Positions 1 through 17,808 of a stretch of DNA of 44,811 bases are shown here, piece by piece. Positions within the stretch are counted from its first letter, which is position 1, and the number at the start of each line of letters is the position of its first letter. This stretch comes from Vicinamibacteria bacterium (lineage in GTDB: Bacteria > Acidobacteriota > Vicinamibacteria > Fen-336): assembly GCA_025923995.1 (NCBI GenBank), contig JAICEW010000009.1, positions 1-44,811 of the forward strand. Direction: 5' to 3'. The translations under genes were made by a program, and so were the position numbers. Under the pieces are notes generated by a model. That model was given only the letters and a program-made list of their open reading frames with translations, did not search any database and was not told the DNA's origin.

Positions 1-266
1 ACCTGCGCCGCCTGGCCGCGCGCGACCCGCGCGCCAGCGCGGAGGTCCGCCGCCTGCTGGACGCCCTGCGGCCGCTGGTGCGCGCGGAAGAGGTGGAGCC
101 GGCGCCGGATGACACGGGCCCGGGCCGCATCCACCACCTGGTCGACCGCGGCAGCGTCGCACCCTATCGCGCGCTGGTGCGCCGGGCGGCGCGGGCGCTT
201 CCGGAGCTGCTCGTGAGCTGCACCGGACCCTGGGCGCCCTACAGCTTCGCGGGAGACGGCGTGTGA
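1..266 (+). CDS. Gas vesicle protein GvpL/GvpF family, C-terminal fragment
   Basis: The gene enters from the left edge and is read from base 3, so its start is outside the window. About 87 C-terminal residues remain. They end in the block GPWAPYSFAGDGV, which matches the GPWPPYSF signature at the end of GvpF/GvpL proteins. In that family these proteins are minor gas-vesicle components thought to act in assembly of the GvpA shell. The stop overlaps the GTG start of gvpK by 4 bases (GTGA), so the two are translationally coupled. GvpF and GvpL cannot be told apart from this fragment. Confidence 0.85.
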   Translation, partial: LRRLAARDPRASAEVRRLLDALRPLVRAEEVEPAPDDTGPGRIHHLVDRGSVAPYRALVRRAARALPELLVSCTGPWAPYSFAGDGV

Positions 267-595
267 AGAGGGCTCCGACGTCCCGCCGCCGGGCGCGGCG
301 CGTGCCGGCCCGCCGCGCGGTCCCGCTGGCCCGCCGAAAGTGGAACGCGAACCCGGAGGACGTGGAGCGCTCGCTGGCCAAGCTCGTGCTTTCGCTGGTC
401 GAGTTCCTGCGCCAGATCATGGAGCGCCAGGCGGTGCGCCGGATGGAGGAGGGCACGCTCTCGCCCGCCGAGGTGGAGTCGATGGGGGTCGCCCTCATGA
501 AGCTCGAGGAGACCCTGCACGACCTGGCCGCGCGCTTCGGGCTGCGCCCCTCCGACCTGAACCTGGACCTGGGCCCTCTGGGGAGGCTGACTTGA
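263..595 (+). CDS. gvpK: Gas vesicle protein GvpK
   Basis: A 110-residue protein with the GvpK core: a helical segment with LVEFLRQIMERQAVRRMEEG, then a segment beginning LSPAEVESMGVALMKLEETL, and a closing DLNLDLGPLG motif. GvpK is needed for gas-vesicle formation in several bacteria and is thought to act in assembly; its exact role is unclear. The GTG start lies inside the stop of the upstream gvpL/F gene, and its own TGA overlaps the ATG of the next gene (TGATG), so the three genes form one coupled operon. The N-terminal ~30 residues are rich in Arg and Ala and are not conserved. Confidence 0.9.
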   Translation: MKRAPTSRRRARRVPARRAVPLARRKWNANPEDVERSLAKLVLSLVEFLRQIMERQAVRRMEEGTLSPAEVESMGVALMKLEETLHDLAARFGLRPSDLNLDLGPLGRLT

Positions 596-1534: not shown

Positions 1535-1969
1535 ATGAACACCCGCTTCTTCTTCCTGGCCTGCGCCCTCATCCTGGCGCTGGCCATGCCCGTGGCGGCG
1601 CAGGATCCGCCGGCCGCCCAGGCTCCTTCCGCCACGCTCACTCTGGGCGGGACGGTCACGTCTTCGTCTCCCACGTCGCTCGTCATCCGCGCCGACGACG
1701 GCTCTTCGAAGACGTTCACGGTCGACGACCGGAGCACGCTTCCGACCGGTCTCGCCCGCGGCGCGCGCGTCAACGTGACCTACGAGATGAACGGCACCCG
1801 CATGCGCGCCGTGAGCGTGACCGACGCCGCGCCGCCCCCGACGGCCGCGGAGACGGACCCCGGCCGCACGGATCGGCTCCCGGCGACCGCCAGCTCCCTG
1901 CCGCTCATCGCCCTGCTCAGCGCCGTGGCGCTGGCATCGGGCTTCGCCCTGCGGCGGCACCTCGCCTGA
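1535..1969 (+). CDS. Secreted protein with C-terminal LPATA sorting signal, probable sortase substrate
   Basis: A 144-residue exported protein. Residues 1-22 are a signal peptide (cleavage likely after V-A-A, before Q23). Residues 33-97 look like one small beta-rich domain (GGTVTSSSPTSLVIRADDG followed by a second short strand set), similar in style to OB-fold-like DUF5666 domains. A Pro/Thr linker follows. The C-terminus has the three parts of a sortase signal: LPATAS (115-120), a hydrophobic segment (122-138) and a short RR-containing tail. Class D sortases are known to use LPxTA motifs. The next gene, 1 base downstream, is a sortase, so this is very likely its dedicated target. The start ATG follows GAGGAGG at a good distance. 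Confidence 0.75.
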   Translation: MNTRFFFLACALILALAMPVAAQDPPAAQAPSATLTLGGTVTSSSPTSLVIRADDGSSKTFTVDDRSTLPTGLARGARVNVTYEMNGTRMRAVSVTDAAPPPTAAETDPGRTDRLPATASSLPLIALLSAVALASGFALRRHLA

Positions 1970-1970
1970 C

Positions 1971-2567
1971 ATGGGCTCGCAGGCCCTCCGGCGCGCGTCG
2001 GCGCACATGCTCCTGGCCGCCGGCCTGGGGGGCCTGCTGCTGTGCGGCGCCGCCCGCGGATGGGCGCTCTACTACGAGCGGCGCGAGGCCGCTCGTCTCC
2101 AGGCGGCCCGGGGAGGGACCGACGTCTCGTCCCGCGACGCCGCCCTGCGGCGCTCCGCCGGCGGCGGAGCCTGGGGCCGCCTCGAGATCGAGCGGCTGGG
2201 CGTCTCGGCGCTGATCGCGGAGGGCACCGATGGAGCGACGCTCGCGGTCGCGCTCGGCCACGTCGGCGGCACCGCGTTCCCCGGGGAGCCGGGGACGGTG
2301 GCCCTGGCGGGGCACCGCGACACCCATCTCCGGAGCCTGGCCCGCGTGCGAGTGGGAGACCGCGTGCGCATCGCGACGCCGGAAGGAGGCTTCGACTACG
2401 TCGTCGAGGCGACGCACGTCGTCGCGCCCGAGCGCGTCGACCTGATCCGCGCGGGCCCGACGCCGCGACTGGCGCTCGTCACGTGCTACCCGTTCGGATA
2501 CGTGGGCCCTGCGCCGTATCGCATGGTGGTCCACGCGCGCCCCGCGCCAGGCTCCCTCGTCCGATAG
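1971..2567 (+). CDS. Class D-like sortase
   Basis: A 198-residue transpeptidase with an N-terminal membrane anchor (about residues 11-31) and a sortase domain (about 68-192). The catalytic triad is visible: H115 in AGHRDT, C172 in LVTCYPF, and R184 in APYR. The compact size and the TCYPF context fit class D/E-type housekeeping sortases. Sortases cut LPxT-type signals and join the substrate to an acceptor amine. In Gram-positives the acceptor is peptidoglycan; in a diderm the acceptor is not established. It begins 1 base after the stop of its presumed substrate gene, so both are made from the sigma-54 promoter at 1464. The next gene is convergent. Confidence 0.88.
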   Translation: MGSQALRRASAHMLLAAGLGGLLLCGAARGWALYYERREAARLQAARGGTDVSSRDAALRRSAGGGAWGRLEIERLGVSALIAEGTDGATLAVALGHVGGTAFPGEPGTVALAGHRDTHLRSLARVRVGDRVRIATPEGGFDYVVEATHVVAPERVDLIRAGPTPRLALVTCYPFGYVGPAPYRMVVHARPAPGSLVR

Positions 2568-5645: not shown

Positions 5646-7556
5646 ATGAAGCATTTCGCATGGGTCATGGTCGGAATCTGTTGCAGCGCGCCCCTCGGTG
5701 CGCAGGACGTCAATGTCTTCACGCCCTCGCAGCGGGGCGACGCGCCGATCTTCATGAATGGCCAGGTGGTGCGCATCGACCGCGCCGCCGGCACCATCAC
5801 GATCCGCAACAACGACGGGCGGCGCGTGCTCACCGTGGACCGGCAGGCACTGGGCGCGTTGGGCAACCTCAGGGTGGGCTCGAGCGTGATCCTCGGCCTG
5901 CGCGAGACGGGCTCAGGCGCGTCGGCGCGCCAGTTGGTCACGGACATCCGGCCCTCGGGCGCGGTCTCGCTCGGCGCCAGCCGCGTGTCCGCGAATGCGT
6001 CGCTGCTCGCGTCCGGCGCCCGCTCGATCGGGACGGCGCAGGTGGTCAGCACCGACCGCGCCTTGCGGCGGATGACGGTCGTCGACTCGACGGGCGCCAC
6101 CCGGGTGCTCGACGTGCGCGGCGGAGCCGTGGGCACGCTGGGCTCGCTCCGTGCGGGCGACTCGGTGTCGCTCGGCGTGGCGGCGCCCCTGGTCTCGGGC
6201 ACGCCCGCGGGCACGGTCACCTCGATCGACAGCCCGGGGCAGTCCGTGAACGCCACGACCGCGAGGGGCACCGCGCCCGCGAGCGGGAGGAACGCGAGCG
6301 GGGGCTTCTCGACGTCCGCGCCCTCGGCTACCGGCGGGACGGTGACGGTCTTCAACAACGATTCCCTCCCGCAGGCCCCGCGGCTGCCGGCGAGTCCCGA
6401 CAACGGGCTCAACCGGAACCCGGCGACGACGGGCGTGCAGCCCGCGCCGGGTGCGCAACCGATCCCGGGCGTGCAGGGTCCGACCGGCATGCAGCCGGTG
6501 CCGGGCGCACAGCCGATCCCCGGATCGACGGGCGGCGTCAGGACGCAGGCCATCCCCGGCACGCAGCCGATCCCTGGATCGACCGGCGGCCTCACGACCC
6601 AGCCCGTTCCCGGCGCGCAGCCACTGCCCGGCACGGGCGTGACGGGACAGAGCGCCGCGAACCCGGGCCTCGCGCCCCAGCCGGTGCCGGCGATTCCGGG
6701 TCAGCCGAGCGTCGACCCCGCGACCGGAATCGTGACCACGACGAATCCCGGCTTGTCTCCGCAGCCGGTTCCCGGATCCGGCGGCCAGAACGCCATCAAC
6801 TCGGGCGCGACCGGCGGGGTGTCCACGACCGCCAACCCCGGTGGCGTCGCGACCACCGGCCAGCCGACGACCGGCAGCACCGGCATTCCGGGCAACGTGG
6901 CGGTGCCCGGCGTCTCCGGCCTCACCGGCGGCATGAGCTCGCGCGGTGTGGGCAGCGGGAACACCGGTGGCGCCGGTGTGGGCACGACGGGCGGCCGTGG
7001 GGGCGGCGGTGCCACGAGTGGCGGCACGGCCACGGGCGGCGGAAGCCCGATCCTCTCCCCCTCCATCCCGCAGCTCGGTAGCGGCGGCTTCATGGGTGGC
7101 GGACTCAACAGCCAGATCCCCAGCATCCCGCCGTCCGCGGGGACGATGAACAGCCCGGTGCTGCCTGTGCCCGCGGTGCTGCCCAACTCGTACGCGCCGC
7201 AGACGCCGAACGAGGTCGCGGCCGTGCGCGAGCTGGCCTCGCGCGACTTCGACATGGCGGTCGCCGTGGTGGCCGCGCGCGCCTCCGAGGTCGACCGCGC
7301 CTGGGTCGCGTATCGCTCCCAGTGCGTCACCAGCACGGTGCCTCTCAACAACCGCGCTCGCGAGTGGTTCGCGGTGCTGGACGGCACGCTCATCGGTCCG
7401 AGCGAGGACGTCTGCGAGTCGAGCTACAACGAGGTCGCCCGCCTGGCCCAGGGCGTCCAGGCGTCGCTGGACATGGCGCGCGACACCGCCCGGCGCGCCG
7501 ACGTGCTGCCCGGGCGCATGCGCGACGTGCTCCAGAGGTACAACCTCGACCTCTAG
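5646..7556 (+). CDS. Secreted low-complexity protein with QPIPG repeats, unknown
   Basis: 636 residues. A signal peptide ends near residue 19 (PLGA before QDV). Residues 35-200 hold two or three small beta domains (GQVVRIDRAAGTITIRNNDG; VVSTDRALRRMTVVDSTG), comparable to the DUF5666-like domain of the sortase substrate at 1535. A repeat region follows, with many copies of (P/T)GAQPIPG or QPVPG, then a Gly/Thr/Ser-rich stretch. The last ~130 residues form a distinct helical, alanine-rich domain with two Cys (YRSQC, DVCESS) that could form a disulfide. No sorting signal or barrel is visible. It is probably an exported structural or surface protein. polX begins 4 bases after its stop. The family is not recognised. 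Confidence 0.75.
   Translation: MKHFAWVMVGICCSAPLGAQDVNVFTPSQRGDAPIFMNGQVVRIDRAAGTITIRNNDGRRVLTVDRQALGALGNLRVGSSVILGLRETGSGASARQLVTDIRPSGAVSLGASRVSANASLLASGARSIGTAQVVSTDRALRRMTVVDSTGATRVLDVRGGAVGTLGSLRAGDSVSLGVAAPLVSGTPAGTVTSIDSPGQSVNATTARGTAPASGRNASGGFSTSAPSATGGTVTVFNNDSLPQAPRLPASPDNGLNRNPATTGVQPAPGAQPIPGVQGPTGMQPVPGAQPIPGSTGGVRTQAIPGTQPIPGSTGGLTTQPVPGAQPLPGTGVTGQSAANPGLAPQPVPAIPGQPSVDPATGIVTTTNPGLSPQPVPGSGGQNAINSGATGGVSTTANPGGVATTGQPTTGSTGIPGNVAVPGVSGLTGGMSSRGVGSGNTGGAGVGTTGGRGGGGATSGGTATGGGSPILSPSIPQLGSGGFMGGGLNSQIPSIPPSAGTMNSPVLPVPAVLPNSYAPQTPNEVAAVRELASRDFDMAVAVVAARASEVDRAWVAYRSQCVTSTVPLNNRAREWFAVLDGTLIGPSEDVCESSYNEVARLAQGVQASLDMARDTARRADVLPGRMRDVLQRYNLDL
6440..6780. repeat. Degenerate repeats encoding (A/T)QPIPG motifs
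   Basis: Related units encode PGAQPIPG, PGTQPIPG, PGAQPLPG and PQPVPG, spaced 12-24 residues apart. The DNA copies differ at third positions, so the array is old or has been diversified. Confidence 0.6.
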
Positions 7557-11613: not shown

Positions 11614-14600
11614 TCAGAAAGCCTGTCCCAGGCTGAAGAACCACTGGAATGCGCGGTCGTCCCGCCGCTTGTTCAGGGGGAAGCCGAAGTCGATGCGGAG
11701 CAGGCCCACCGGCGAGTCGTAGCGCAGCCCCGCCCCGATCGAATGGCGCAGCTTGAAGGTCCACAGGTCCTTCGCGTCGGCGTAGACGTTGCCGCCGTCG
11801 TAGAACGCGGCCAGGCCGAGCCCGCTCGGGTGCCGGTAGCGGATCTCCTGGTTGAGGATGAGCATCGCCTCGCCGCCGCGCGAGACGCCCTGGATCGGCC
11901 CGGGCGGCCCCACGGAATCGGTGGCGAAGCCGCGCAGGCTGTTGGCGCCGCCGGCGCGGAAGCCCTCCGTCGACCGCCCGAAGAGCGCGGTCTGGAACGC
12001 GATCTGCTCGTCCAGCCCGGCCGCCCAGCCGATGCGGTACGCCTGGGCCCACGTCAGCCACTCGCCGACGGGGCGCGCCAGGAACGCCTGGCCGGTGCCC
12101 TTGAAGAACTGGAAGTCGGAGCCCAGCAGAGTGGGACCCACCTCCAGGCTGAGGCTCAGGAACATGCCCTCGCGCGCGTCGAGCGTGCTGTCGCGCGTCT
12201 CGCGCAGGGCCGAGGCCTGGATGCTGGAGAGCGTCTGCTCGAAGTGCCGGTGCACGCTCTCGATCGTCTTGAAGCGGTAACCCAGCAGGAAGTCCCACTT
12301 GAGCGGCGCCCGCAGGGAGTGCTGGATCTCGAAGCCCTGCCGCCGCTCCGTGTCCGGGATGGTGGCCGGCGTCAGCACGGGCCCCTCCTCGCTGAGCAGC
12401 AGGAAGTCCTCCTCCTCCCGGAACAGCGCCCCCGTGATCTCGGCCGACTTCCCCAGCGCCGGCAGGTGCAGCGAGCCGCGCGCCTCGCGCACGTCGGCAC
12501 CGCCGCGGAACCGCGCTCCGATCGCCAGCGCCGTGCCCGCGATGTTGCCGACCTCGGCGTCCACCAGCCCCGAGAACCCCTCCTCCGGGTTGTGCCGGAC
12601 GTCGTACTGCAGCGTGTACGGGCCCTGCTCCCGCACCTCCACGGTGATGGTCGCGCGCTCGTCGGAGGAGGCCGTGGCCGCGGCGCGCCGGAAGACGTCG
12701 AGGTCCAGCAGGCGCCGCTCCAGCAGCGTGAGCTTGCGCGGGTCGAGCGGGTCTCCCGCCTTGAACGGGAGGACGCGGCGGACGGTGGCCTCCCGGGTGC
12801 GCCGCAGCCCCTTGAACACCACGTCCCCCACGAACTGCTGCGGGCCCTCGACGATGCGCAGCACCAGGTCCAGGTCCGTCTCCTGCGGCTCCAGCCGCGG
12901 CTGGACGCGCACGCCCGCGAACCCGCGCTCGAGGTAGTACGCGCGGATGCGCTGCACCGCGTCCTCGACCGGCATCGGGTCGTAGGGGTGGCCGGTCTCG
13001 ATGCGCGCGGCGTCGGCCAGCTCCGTCTCGTCCCGGGTGGCGCCTTCGAAGCGCACGTCCCCCAGCAGGGCCTGCGGACCTTCCTCGACCGCGACGTCGA
13101 TCGTGACGGACGAGCGGTCCTCCGACTCGCTCACCCGCGGCAACTCCACGCGGGCCTGCAGGTAGTGGTGCTCGCGGTAGAGCGCGACGATCCGCTCGCG
13201 CGCCTCCCGCGGATCGCCCAGCAGGGCCGCCTCGCCGCCCGCGGCGGCCACCAGCTGCCCGGAGGACAGCGCCGCCGCTCCGGTGAAGCGCACCTCGCGC
13301 ACGACGGCCGGATCGCCGAGCGCGACCTGGAACACGATGGTGCGCGCGGCCTGGTTTCCGCGGACCTCCGTCGTCACGCGCGCCTTCACGTACCCGCGCC
13401 GGTGCGCTTCCTCCAGCAGGCGGGCGCGGCCGTTCTCGATCGCTTCCTCCTCGAAGAAGGACCGCAGGATGTCGGCCGTGAGGTCCGGCGGAGTCGCCAT
13501 CCCCTCCACCATCCACGCGTAGCGCGGCCCGGGCCGCGCCTCGATCACGCCGACCGTGCCTTCGAGGTCCGCGGACGCGAGGGCCTCCAGGTAGCCGGCG
13601 GAGTGCATCAGGTCCTGCACCGCCTCGGACTCGTCCTGGAGGCGCCAGAAGGTGGCGCGGCTGCCTTCCTCCACGCGCAGGCGCCGGCGCGCGGCGTCTT
13701 GCAGCTCCGCCGGAACGCCCGCGAGGCGCACCTCGGTCAGCTCGACCGAGTCGTCGGCGGCGCGGCGACGCCCTCCGCCGGGCCCCCTGCGGTCGCCCCC
13801 CCAGCGCCAGCGCTGGCCGACGCCGTAGTTGTACGTTCCGTCGTCCCCGTACTGGATCTTGGCGGAGACCTCGCGGCCGAGCCGGAAGCGGTACTGCCCC
13901 TCGAAGAAGCGGGCCTCGGGGTCGTTGAGCCCCACCGAGTAGATGAGCTTCAGCTGCGGCGTCAGCAGCTTGCCGAACGTGAAGCGCGCGCCGGGGTCGT
14001 CCTCGCGCGCCAGCAGCTGGGGCTGGATGTCCACCTGGTCCAGCCCCAGGTCGCGCAGGCTCCGGGACAGGCCGCGCGTGAGGCGTCCGGCCAGCAGCAC
14101 CGCGGTGTGCTCGCCCGCCGCCCACGCCGCCCCGCTGCCCGAGTCGAGCACGCCCCGGCGGCCGGTCGCGATCAGGCTCGCGATCTCGCGCTCGGAGTAC
14201 GAGGGGTCCGAGCGCAGGTCGAGCGTCGGACGCTCCAGCGGGCCGCTCGCGATGGCGGTCACGCGCACGTCCTCCTCTTCGATCTGGGAGATGACGGTCT
14301 CGGCCGTGATCGCGATCTCGGGATCGAGGGAGCCGTTGTACGTGAGGCTGCCGTTGCGGATCGTGAACTCGCGCGTCTGCAGGAACACCTTGCCGCCCTG
14401 GCGCACGTCCAGCCGGCCGAAGGGCGCGGGATAGCGGGCGTCCCCGCGAATGCGCAGGCGACCGCTCGCCTCCAGCTCCGCCAGGTTGTTGCGTACGATC
14501 ATGGGCCGGTCCGTCACCGCGGTGAGGTCGAGGGCGACCGACTCCAGGAACGGCGAGCGGGTAGCGGGCGGCGGCGGCACGCTGGGGGCCCACAGCGTGT

Positions 14601-17600
14601 TCTCCAGGCGGATGTCCGTGTCGTAGAGCCCCCGCTCGGCGTGCACCTCACCGGCCAGCAGGAGCGATCCCAGGGGGCCCTTGAGGGTCAGGTCCGCGCG
14701 CAGCCGGCTCCGGAAGTCGCGCGGATAGCGCAGCGACACGTCGCGCGCCTGCAGCGTCAGGTCGAGCGGCGTGTCCTGCGCCAGCCCGGCCGAGCCCGAG
14801 GCGGTCAGCGTGCCGCCGCCCCACTCCGCCCGCACGTCCTCGAGGCGGAGCACGCGGCCCTCGAGGACGCCGCGCCCGTTGATGTCGGTGATGGCCTGCG
14901 GGATCTCGCGCAGGCGCAGCGAGCCGTCCGCCAGCGTGACGACGCCTGCCGCGCGCGGAGCGTCGAGCGAGCCGGACACGGCGACGTCGAGGTCGGCGCT
15001 GCCGGCCAGGGCTCCCTGTTCGACGAACGGGGAGAGAGCCCGCAGGTCCAGCCGGCCGCGGCTCGTCCCCTCGACCGCACGCGTCCTCAGGTTCGCGTGG
15101 CCCTGCGTGACCACCTCGCCGCCGTGCGAGCGCACGGTCCAGGGATCGAGGACGACGGCCGCCCCGTCCGCGTGAGCGCGCAGGGCCCCCAGCTCGACCG
15201 CGACGTTCTCGACGCGCAGCGTCGTGGCGGGAGCCTCGAGCGTCCCGCGCGCCTCGCGGGCGGCGGGGCGCGCCTCCAGCGTGAGCCGGGCCGCGAGCGT
15301 CCCGTCCACCGGCACGGACGCGTTGCGCAGCGACGCGAACAGGGCACCCGCGTCCACGTCCCGCACGTCGACCTGGGCGCGCACGAGGTCGGCCGACGGC
15401 GTGTGACCCGCCACGGGCGGCGCGAGCGCCGCCACCGGGGCCTCGCCGGAAACGGTCATCGTCCCACCGGCGACATCCGCCTGCAGGTCGGCGACCGCGA
15501 TGCGGTCGCCGCGCAGCTCGATGCGCCCGGCCGGCAGCGAGAGGAACGGCGCCTCGCCGGGACCGCCCAGCAGCACGTCGGCCACGTCGATCTGCCCGGA
15601 GGCGCGCGGGGCCGCGCGCGTCCCCGTGAGCGCGACGTCCGCCGCGAACGAGCCGGCGACGCGGAAGCGGGGAGGGGCTCCCACGTTCGCCAGGTCGCCC
15701 TGCACTTCGAGCCGTCCCTCGACCGGGTCGTTCGGGCCCAGCCCGGCCGAACCGGACACGCGCACGCGAATCCCTTCGCCCTCCGCGTCCAGCCCGTCGA
15801 TGCGCGCCCGCTGGTCGCGCCAGCCGACCGTGAACGGACGCAGGGCCGATGCGCCCAGGTCGCCGCTCAGCACCTCCGCGGACGCGACCCGTGCGTCGAC
15901 CGTCGCCCGCATCGGGTCGCTCCAGGGCACGCGCACGTCCGCGGACGCGGTGACCGCGCCCTCCAGCGGGCGGCCGGCGGGCATCAGCGGCTGGAGCGGC
16001 GCGAGTGGCGTCTGGGCCAGCTCAAGGCGGGCGGTGGCCTCGCGCGCATCGAACGTCGCGTCTCCCGTGACGTTGAGCGACGGCACCGCCATGCGCGCGG
16101 TCCCGCGTCCGCGCGAGCCGGTCAGGTCCACCGCTGCCGAGCCGATCGCGACGCCATTCCACACGAGGCCCGCGCCGCGCACGGAGCCGCTGCCGCCCAG
16201 GGCGTCGAGCGGCCCGGACGCGCGCAGCTCCGCGTCCACGCGTCCGGTGGCACCGGGCGCGAACGGCGACACGTCGAGGCCCTGGGCGCGAGCCTCCAGG
16301 TCGCGGACGATGCTTCCGTCGGTCGCGATCCGCACGTCGCCCGTGCCGCCCAATCCGCGCGTCGCGAGCGTGGCGTCGACGCGTGTGCCGCTGCTCCGCA
16401 GCTGGCCGTCGACCGAGACCTCCTGCGGCCCCGTCGCCGTCTGGAGCGCGACCGTGCCCGTCACCGTGCCCCTGACGTCCGGCGGCAACGCGCCCTGCGC
16501 ATCGCCCTGCGCGTTCAGGTGTGCCGTTCTCCAGCCGGCCGCGCCGGGCGCGAGCGGCTGCGACAGCGTCAGCTCCCCGCGCCACTCGAGCCCCACGCGC
16601 GGGCCCTCGACTTCGACACGGCCGCCGCCCTGCGCTCGCACCTGGTGCGTGAGGGTTCCTTCGCGGCCCGCGGCGCCCAGGTCGAAGGCGACCTGCAGCG
16701 GACCGTCGAGAGGACCTTCCGCGTTCACGCGGCCGGAGACGCGGCTGGCCGGGAGGCCCTCGGGCGCCACCGATGCGGGCAGGCGCCGCGTGTCGATGCC
16801 CTCGGCACGCGCGTGCGCGGTCACGCGACCGCCGACGAGGCTCGCGTCGCCGGTGACGGCCCCACCGAGGGTGCGCGCGGTCCAGCTCGCGCGCGAGCCC
16901 GCCGTCTCGTAGGCGAAGCGGGCGTCCACGTGGTCGACGCGCACGTCGCTCACGCGCAGGTCCTGGCCGGTCGCCGAGCCGGAGACGGCGGGCTCGGCCA
17001 GCGTGCCCAGGGCGGTTCCCTCCGCGTTCACGAGCCCCGCGATCGCCGGCGGCCGCGGTGCGAACCCGCCCAGCTCCTGGAGATCGAGGGCCGCGCTCCA
17101 CGTGACGTCGAGCGCGCCCGGGTCGCCCGTCTCGATGCGGCCCGAGCCGCGTGCGCGCGATCGCGCGGTGCCGGCCTCGAGGGACTCGACGTCGACGTCG
17201 AACATGGGCGAGACCGCCCCGCGGAAGGACACGGGACCCAGCGGCACCTGGGGCTCTCGCGACCACACGCCACCGGCGGCGGTCGCCACCAACGTGCCCT
17301 CGCCGATGCTGCCGCTCGCGTCCACGTCGTCGAAGCGCAGGGGTCCGCCCAGCCGCTCGTCCTCGTAGGTGATCGTCGCGTCGGTCACGCGCAGCGACCC
17401 GATGCGCACGGCCGTTCGTTCGGACGCTCCGGACTCGGGCGGCGGCCGCAACGTGATGCGGGCACCGTCGACCTCGAGCGAGCGCAGGTCGATCGTGCCC
17501 CTGAGCAGCATCGCCATCGTCGCCCGCACGCGGGCGTGCGGAGCCTCGATGCGGTACGCCGGCCCCTCGAGCGTCAGCTCGCTGATCTCCGCCGAGAGGG

Positions 17601-17808
17601 ACCCCGGGACCACGTGCAGCGCGCCGACGCGGCTGCGGGGACCGACGGCCTCGCGCATCCGCCGCTCGACCAGGAGCCGGACGCGCTCCTGCGGGAACCA
17701 CCCGGCGGCCAGCAGGCCGAGCCCGAGGAGCAGGCAGAGTGCGGCCACGGCCAGGACCCGCCGGGGCCGCAGCCAGGACCGGCTGACACGTCCTCCGTTC
17801 TCGACCAT
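11614..17808 (-). CDS. TamB-Omp85 fusion: AsmA/TamB-like bridge, five POTRA-like repeats and an outer-membrane barrel in one chain
   Basis: 2064 residues in one open frame. Residues 17-37 are an uncleaved inner-membrane anchor. Residues ~40-1345 are TamB-like, with repeated beta-rich AsmA/TamB units. The conserved TamB C-terminal domain (about 1040-1345) shows DRPMIVRNNLAELEASGRLR, REFTIRNGSLTYNGSLDPEI, SEREIASLIATGR and GLDQVDIQPQLL. From ~1350 come five POTRA-like repeats (starting near 1350, 1432, 1501, 1580 and 1658; for example VREVRFTGA, LLGDVRFEG and VGDVVFKGL). From ~1727 an Omp85 barrel follows, with the loop-6 motif SLRGF near 1956 and a C-terminus ending in aromatic Phe. TamB and TamA are normally separate proteins that link the two membranes and act in outer-membrane protein or phospholipid delivery; here they are joined covalently. 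Each part has near-normal length. Five POTRAs resemble BamA more than TamA (three). Confidence 0.88.
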   Translation of the reverse strand: MVENGGRVSRSWLRPRRVLAVAALCLLLGLGLLAAGWFPQERVRLLVERRMREAVGPRSRVGALHVVPGSLSAEISELTLEGPAYRIEAPHARVRATMAMLLRGTIDLRSLEVDGARITLRPPPESGASERTAVRIGSLRVTDATITYEDERLGGPLRFDDVDASGSIGEGTLVATAAGGVWSREPQVPLGPVSFRGAVSPMFDVDVESLEAGTARSRARGSGRIETGDPGALDVTWSAALDLQELGGFAPRPPAIAGLVNAEGTALGTLAEPAVSGSATGQDLRVSDVRVDHVDARFAYETAGSRASWTARTLGGAVTGDASLVGGRVTAHARAEGIDTRRLPASVAPEGLPASRVSGRVNAEGPLDGPLQVAFDLGAAGREGTLTHQVRAQGGGRVEVEGPRVGLEWRGELTLSQPLAPGAAGWRTAHLNAQGDAQGALPPDVRGTVTGTVALQTATGPQEVSVDGQLRSSGTRVDATLATRGLGGTGDVRIATDGSIVRDLEARAQGLDVSPFAPGATGRVDAELRASGPLDALGGSGSVRGAGLVWNGVAIGSAAVDLTGSRGRGTARMAVPSLNVTGDATFDAREATARLELAQTPLAPLQPLMPAGRPLEGAVTASADVRVPWSDPMRATVDARVASAEVLSGDLGASALRPFTVGWRDQRARIDGLDAEGEGIRVRVSGSAGLGPNDPVEGRLEVQGDLANVGAPPRFRVAGSFAADVALTGTRAAPRASGQIDVADVLLGGPGEAPFLSLPAGRIELRGDRIAVADLQADVAGGTMTVSGEAPVAALAPPVAGHTPSADLVRAQVDVRDVDAGALFASLRNASVPVDGTLAARLTLEARPAAREARGTLEAPATTLRVENVAVELGALRAHADGAAVVLDPWTVRSHGGEVVTQGHANLRTRAVEGTSRGRLDLRALSPFVEQGALAGSADLDVAVSGSLDAPRAAGVVTLADGSLRLREIPQAITDINGRGVLEGRVLRLEDVRAEWGGGTLTASGSAGLAQDTPLDLTLQARDVSLRYPRDFRSRLRADLTLKGPLGSLLLAGEVHAERGLYDTDIRLENTLWAPSVPPPPATRSPFLESVALDLTAVTDRPMIVRNNLAELEASGRLRIRGDARYPAPFGRLDVRQGGKVFLQTREFTIRNGSLTYNGSLDPEIAITAETVISQIEEEDVRVTAIASGPLERPTLDLRSDPSYSEREIASLIATGRRGVLDSGSGAAWAAGEHTAVLLAGRLTRGLSRSLRDLGLDQVDIQPQLLAREDDPGARFTFGKLLTPQLKLIYSVGLNDPEARFFEGQYRFRLGREVSAKIQYGDDGTYNYGVGQRWRWGGDRRGPGGGRRRAADDSVELTEVRLAGVPAELQDAARRRLRVEEGSRATFWRLQDESEAVQDLMHSAGYLEALASADLEGTVGVIEARPGPRYAWMVEGMATPPDLTADILRSFFEEEAIENGRARLLEEAHRRGYVKARVTTEVRGNQAARTIVFQVALGDPAVVREVRFTGAAALSSGQLVAAAGGEAALLGDPREARERIVALYREHHYLQARVELPRVSESEDRSSVTIDVAVEEGPQALLGDVRFEGATRDETELADAARIETGHPYDPMPVEDAVQRIRAYYLERGFAGVRVQPRLEPQETDLDLVLRIVEGPQQFVGDVVFKGLRRTREATVRRVLPFKAGDPLDPRKLTLLERRLLDLDVFRRAAATASSDERATITVEVREQGPYTLQYDVRHNPEEGFSGLVDAEVGNIAGTALAIGARFRGGADVREARGSLHLPALGKSAEITGALFREEEDFLLLSEEGPVLTPATIPDTERRQGFEIQHSLRAPLKWDFLLGYRFKTIESVHRHFEQTLSSIQASALRETRDSTLDAREGMFLSLSLEVGPTLLGSDFQFFKGTGQAFLARPVGEWLTWAQAYRIGWAAGLDEQIAFQTALFGRSTEGFRAGGANSLRGFATDSVGPPGPIQGVSRGGEAMLILNQEIRYRHPSGLGLAAFYDGGNVYADAKDLWTFKLRHSIGAGLRYDSPVGLLRIDFGFPLNKRRDDRAFQWFFSLGQAF

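Follow-up and report, generated by a model that had tools for sequence, protein, structure and literature searches.

A sortase beside a small LPATA-tailed protein in a diderm member of the Acidobacteriota, with a sigma-54 promoter site upstream

Described sortase-substrate pairs and the new locus

Sortases are taught as a surface tool of Gram-positive bacteria, and the question of what role they play in bacteria with two membranes has long been open. The class D sortase SrtC of Bacillus anthracis cuts an LPNTA signal between T and A and uses meso-diaminopimelate as the acceptor (PMC3297441), and the gene for the class D sortase of Clostridium perfringens shares an operon with a substrate that ends in LPQTGS (PMC4498605). 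Dedicated sortase-target pairs were also known in Gram-negative bacteria by 2011 (PMC3237569). Neither biochemistry of any Acidobacteriota sortase nor a paper on these enzymes was found in the open-licence literature that we searched, a scope that excludes most subscription journals.

The pair described here lies in a 44,811-nucleotide stretch of DNA (the window; contig JAICEW010000009.1) from a soil-type Vicinamibacteria bacterium, whose assembly (GCA_025923995.1) is a 6.8-Mb draft in 592 contigs that is 96.8% complete. The original prediction of a two-gene operon agrees with what is read in the window: both open reading frames are on the + strand, the substrate at 1535 to 1969 and the sortase at 1971 to 2567, and a single base separates the substrate stop codon (1967 to 1969) from the sortase ATG (1971). 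Neither a sigma-70-type promoter nor an intrinsic terminator was found between positions 1400 and 2750. The features of the locus are as follows.

1464 to 1478, + strand: sigma-54 (-24/-12) promoter site (TGGCACATCGCTTGC, an exact match), 71 bases upstream of the start codon of the substrate
1524 to 1529, + strand: Shine-Dalgarno sequence AGGAGG, read directly
1535 to 1969, + strand: 144-residue sortase substrate with signal peptide, small OB-like beta barrel, linker and LPATA tail
1535 to 1600, + strand: signal peptide, residues 1 to 22, with predicted cleavage after VAA; read directly and conserved in relatives
1634 to 1825, + strand: mature domain, residues 34 to 97, a five-stranded OB-like barrel (pLDDT about 90)
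1877 to 1891, + strand: LPATA sorting motif, residues 115 to 119, with a predicted cut between T118 and A119
1898 to 1957, + strand: hydrophobic stretch and RR stop-transfer, residues 122 to 141
1971 to 2567, + strand: 198-residue class-D-like sortase with one N-terminal membrane helix and a catalytic domain at residues 65 to 191
2313 to 2315, + strand: catalytic His115, invariant in 21 relatives
2484 to 2486, + strand: catalytic Cys172 in a TLVTCYPF-type motif, invariant in 21 relatives
2520 to 2522, + strand: catalytic Arg184, invariant in 21 relatives

The enzyme, its partner and the host wall

The sortase had been predicted to carry H115, C172 and R184, and these three positions are exact. 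Pfam Sortase (PF04203) matches the enzyme at 1.2e-26, with 93.4 bits against a cut-off of 26.6, which places it in the superfamily. From its sequence, we infer that the enzyme transpeptidates a sorting signal. Its AlphaFold model (mean pLDDT 91.5) has as first-ranked Foldseek match the C. perfringens class D enzyme 4d70 (6.1e-14), which is also its best sequence match in the PDB. In VIA-align 4d70 is second (Z of 20.8 and rmsd of 1.7 over 155 residues), and class C, A and E sortases are within about 1 Z unit of it. Among the NCBIfam models those for class D score best, with 106.7 against a cut-off of 165 (NF033746) and 111.7 against 140 (NF058671), and the top model is a class D model specific for LPxTATN. 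Its partner carries an LPxTA signal, as expected for class D, with LPATA at residues 115 to 119. Since the enzyme is below the curated cut-off of every NCBIfam sortase class model, its membership stops at "class-D-like," and class D is only a loose guide to the acceptor.

The small exported protein that was expected to end in LPATAS, a hydrophobic stretch and RR is indeed present, as a 144-residue protein with both signal peptide and tail. NCBIfam models recognize neither this protein nor its tail, and the similarity of its mature domain to DUF5666 in Pfam is weak (E of 0.13). The barrel resembles CusF-type OB folds (Foldseek, 9.5e-5), and it thus has its fold in common with CusF-like periplasmic proteins. 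In contrast with CusF, whose copper site is made of His, Trp and Met, residues 34 to 97 of the substrate contain two Met, no His and no Trp and therefore lack a metal site of this type. A metal-chaperone role, which the CusF-like fold brought into consideration, was rejected for lack of the ligands. The tail itself is not a chance pattern, since the stretches around 82 sortase loci (729 kb) contain 64 such tails, compared with 2 in the same DNA reversed.

LptD is found in the host genome, which indicates that an outer membrane is present. Together with membership of the Acidobacteriota (class Vicinamibacteria), this makes the host a diderm, as originally predicted, rather than a monoderm. The MurE protein carries DNPR, a mark of meso-diaminopimelate addition, so the wall should contain meso-diaminopimelate.

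Pairing across the phylum and the sigma-54 link

Window-type sortases occur in 82 of 396 genomes sampled across the Acidobacteriota, about a fifth, and most often have one small substrate gene next to them. Of the sortases whose source is named, the closest likewise come from this phylum. In the stretches read, 61 of 81 sortase loci have a same-strand gene with an LPxT[A/G] tail, which is upstream of the sortase in 55 cases. Pairing of sortase and substrate is a general feature of the phylum. Of the 61 tails, 44 read LPxTA and 16 read LPxTG, and S is the next residue in 47. The LPxTA signal that had been proposed is therefore correct for the window, which has LPATA, but the phylum-wide motif is LPxT[A/G]S and not strictly LPxTA. 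By similarity, the substrates form groups: some are secreted and have a PAGTYLFKL-like domain, some are OB-like, as in the window, others are large and of vWA type, and others again are very small and of low complexity. The very small substrates at loci L120, L126, L129 and L132 have a signal peptide, a disordered-looking middle rich in Q, D, P, S and T, and an LPxT[A/G]S tail. At another locus, L035, the substrate is apparently split between two frames.

The window sortase is the single sortase of its genome, and a search with a tail profile, on which all genome-wide tail counts rest, finds no second strong tail there, in line with the predicted one-to-one pairing. None of the three weak second-tail candidates in this genome was confirmed, and one of them is a transmembrane segment without LPxT. 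Among 60 relatives, 18 of which have the sortase, all tails at E < 1e-9 are in sortase-bearing genomes and none are in sortase-free ones. Because tails of this kind went into the profile (the tail G059:C4 did not), the positives are partly circular, but the absence from sortase-free genomes is not. The G059:C4 tail belongs to a distant second substrate, an LPRTAS protein at L199:3821-4621 on the - strand, far from the sortase of its genome, and at L120 there is a second substrate on the opposite strand. One-to-one pairing, which holds in the window genome and as a rule elsewhere, is for this reason a tendency and not a law. Another genome of the window's class, G035, has two sortases, one of which adjoins an LPKTAT substrate. 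The suggestion that the locus is a compact model system fares less well, since an organism known from a draft of 592 contigs makes a poorer model than a cultured relative would.

The proposal of sigma-54 control gains from the exact site at 1464 to 1478, which has GG-N10-GC in a TGGCAC/TTGC context and is common to the three closest loci, and from the presence of rpoN in the host genome. There are 6 exact sites in the window, compared with 0.03 expected by shuffling, and 28 in the genome, compared with 4 in the reversed control. When the regions upstream of 81 sortases were searched for a slightly looser site, 10 were found in the sense orientation versus 1 reversed, 2 antisense and 0 in the complement. 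The 10 sense sites are at the window locus, at its three close relatives (L034, L035 and L036) and at L120, L126, L129, L132, L133 and L136. These loci mark out a sigma-54-linked subtype whose substrates are very small, being either a domain with an OB-fold or a short peptide that looks disordered. A single origin of the sigma-54 loci is not supported by the sortase tree (a quick FastTree), in which they do not form one clade.

The six exact sites in the window are at 1464, 5569, 5607, 17853, 17876 and 26187, and the genes that follow them are the sortase operon, a LigD polymerase/phosphoesterase gene, a secreted protein gene, a TamB-Omp85 gene, an oxidoreductase gene and a BON-domain gene. 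The window contig is 0.66% of the genome yet has 6 of the 28 exact sites, and it is possibly a sigma-54 stress island, which also contains Ku and superoxide dismutase. The secreted protein (636 residues; 5646 to 7556, + strand), directly after a sigma-54 site, has QPxPG-type low-complexity repeats and no Pfam match. A single open frame of 2064 residues (11617 to 17808, - strand) contains TamB, POTRA and Omp85 domains, which is TamB plus TamA in one polypeptide. At the start of the window (3 to 595) is the end of a gas vesicle cluster, with the C-terminus of GvpL/GvpF and GvpK, and then a lone response regulator.

Proposed mechanism, alternatives and known systems

Because of the LPATA signal, the class-D-like enzyme and the meso-diaminopimelate wall, we regard SrtC-like chemistry in the periplasm as the best explanation: the enzyme probably cuts LPATA between T and A in a class-D-like way and joins the substrate to diaminopimelate in the periplasmic wall. 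RNA polymerase with sigma-54 would transcribe the substrate and sortase genes. The substrate would be exported by Sec, lose its signal peptide and stay attached to the inner membrane through its C-terminal tail, while a single N-terminal helix would anchor the sortase, whose catalytic domain would lie in the periplasm. Cys172, aided by His115 and Arg184, would attack the LPATA motif after its T, and the Thr118 carbonyl would be transferred to a peptidoglycan amino group, most likely that on the side chain of meso-diaminopimelate, which would leave a protein of about 96 residues bound to the wall in the periplasm. The two genes and their pairing, the sortase fold and catalytic residues, the promoter site, the diderm marker and a MurE of the meso-diaminopimelate type are established, and we infer the cleavage, the acceptor and the location of the substrate. 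If the substrate is wall-bound, the periplasm would contain proteins covalently anchored to peptidoglycan that are quite unlike Braun-type lipoproteins.

The acceptor is the step for which other outcomes have to be considered. The sortase might act on the tail and yet use an acceptor other than peptidoglycan, such as water (release into the periplasm), an outer membrane component or another protein, given that the sequence does not reveal the acceptor, that the periplasmic wall of a diderm is thin, and that the sortase class scores are below cut-off. We consider this unlikely, since the nearest characterized enzyme that cuts between T and A uses meso-diaminopimelate (PMC3297441) and the genome makes a wall of the meso-diaminopimelate type; moreover, a transpeptidase is not needed if release is its only role. 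Polymerization of the substrate into a pilus-like fiber, as by class C sortases, would be consistent with the many class C enzymes among the structural neighbors. It is very improbable because the N-terminal part of the sortase lacks a DPW/DPF-type lid motif (none is found in the whole sequence), the single substrate is small and is accompanied by no second pilin gene, and the tiny, apparently disordered substrates of other loci are unlikely to build pili. A class C pilus was rejected on the lack of both lid motif and pilins.

The locus could also be an Acidobacteriota form of the class GN pair (TIGR03784 sortase plus VIT/vWA target) in which only the cargo has changed. TIGR03784 matches all 21 aligned sortases, some relatives have sortases that pair with large VIT/vWA-type proteins ending in LPQTAT, and dedicated Gram-negative pairs are on record (PMC3237569). 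Nevertheless, the window enzyme scores only 89.5 with TIGR03784 against a cut-off of 158.25, and class D models score higher. Its single neighbor is a small OB-like protein unrelated to the class GN cargo, and the loci with vWA-type substrates fall elsewhere in the sortase tree than the window enzyme. We therefore think it quite improbable that only the cargo distinguishes the window pair from class GN.

Returning to periplasmic wall attachment by class-D-like chemistry, our guess at its purpose is that sigma-54 controls the deployment of a small wall-tethered module, perhaps within a stress programme, as the neighboring sigma-54 sites suggest. It is conceivable, if somewhat short of probable, that in Acidobacteriota only distantly related to one another a sigma-54-controlled subtype ties very small modules, either one OB-fold or a disordered peptide some tens of residues long, covalently to periplasmic peptidoglycan in an envelope stress programme. 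No description of such a use of sortases, with tiny modules tied to the wall in a stress programme, was found in the literature searched.

Among the closest known systems is B. anthracis SrtC with BasH and BasI, which likewise has a signal of LPNTA type that is cut after T, a meso-diaminopimelate wall, a small dedicated set of substrates and regulated expression (PMC3297441, PMC3208642). It differs in belonging to a monoderm spore-former and in having unrelated substrates, and the window enzyme does not reach the class D cut-offs. C. perfringens sortase D (4d70), which is the closest PDB sequence match and among the closest folds, is from a Gram-positive host and prefers LPQTGS, whereas the window system is diderm and has LPATAS. 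The class GN pair resembles the window pair in being diderm and in having one sortase that adjoins its only substrate (PMC3237569), but it has a large vWA-type target and a sortase of another subgroup, and no sigma-54 site was found upstream of vWA-type loci. Compared with the pairs already known, what is new is the different cargo, the different sortase subgroup, the sigma-54 control and the wide spread within one phylum.
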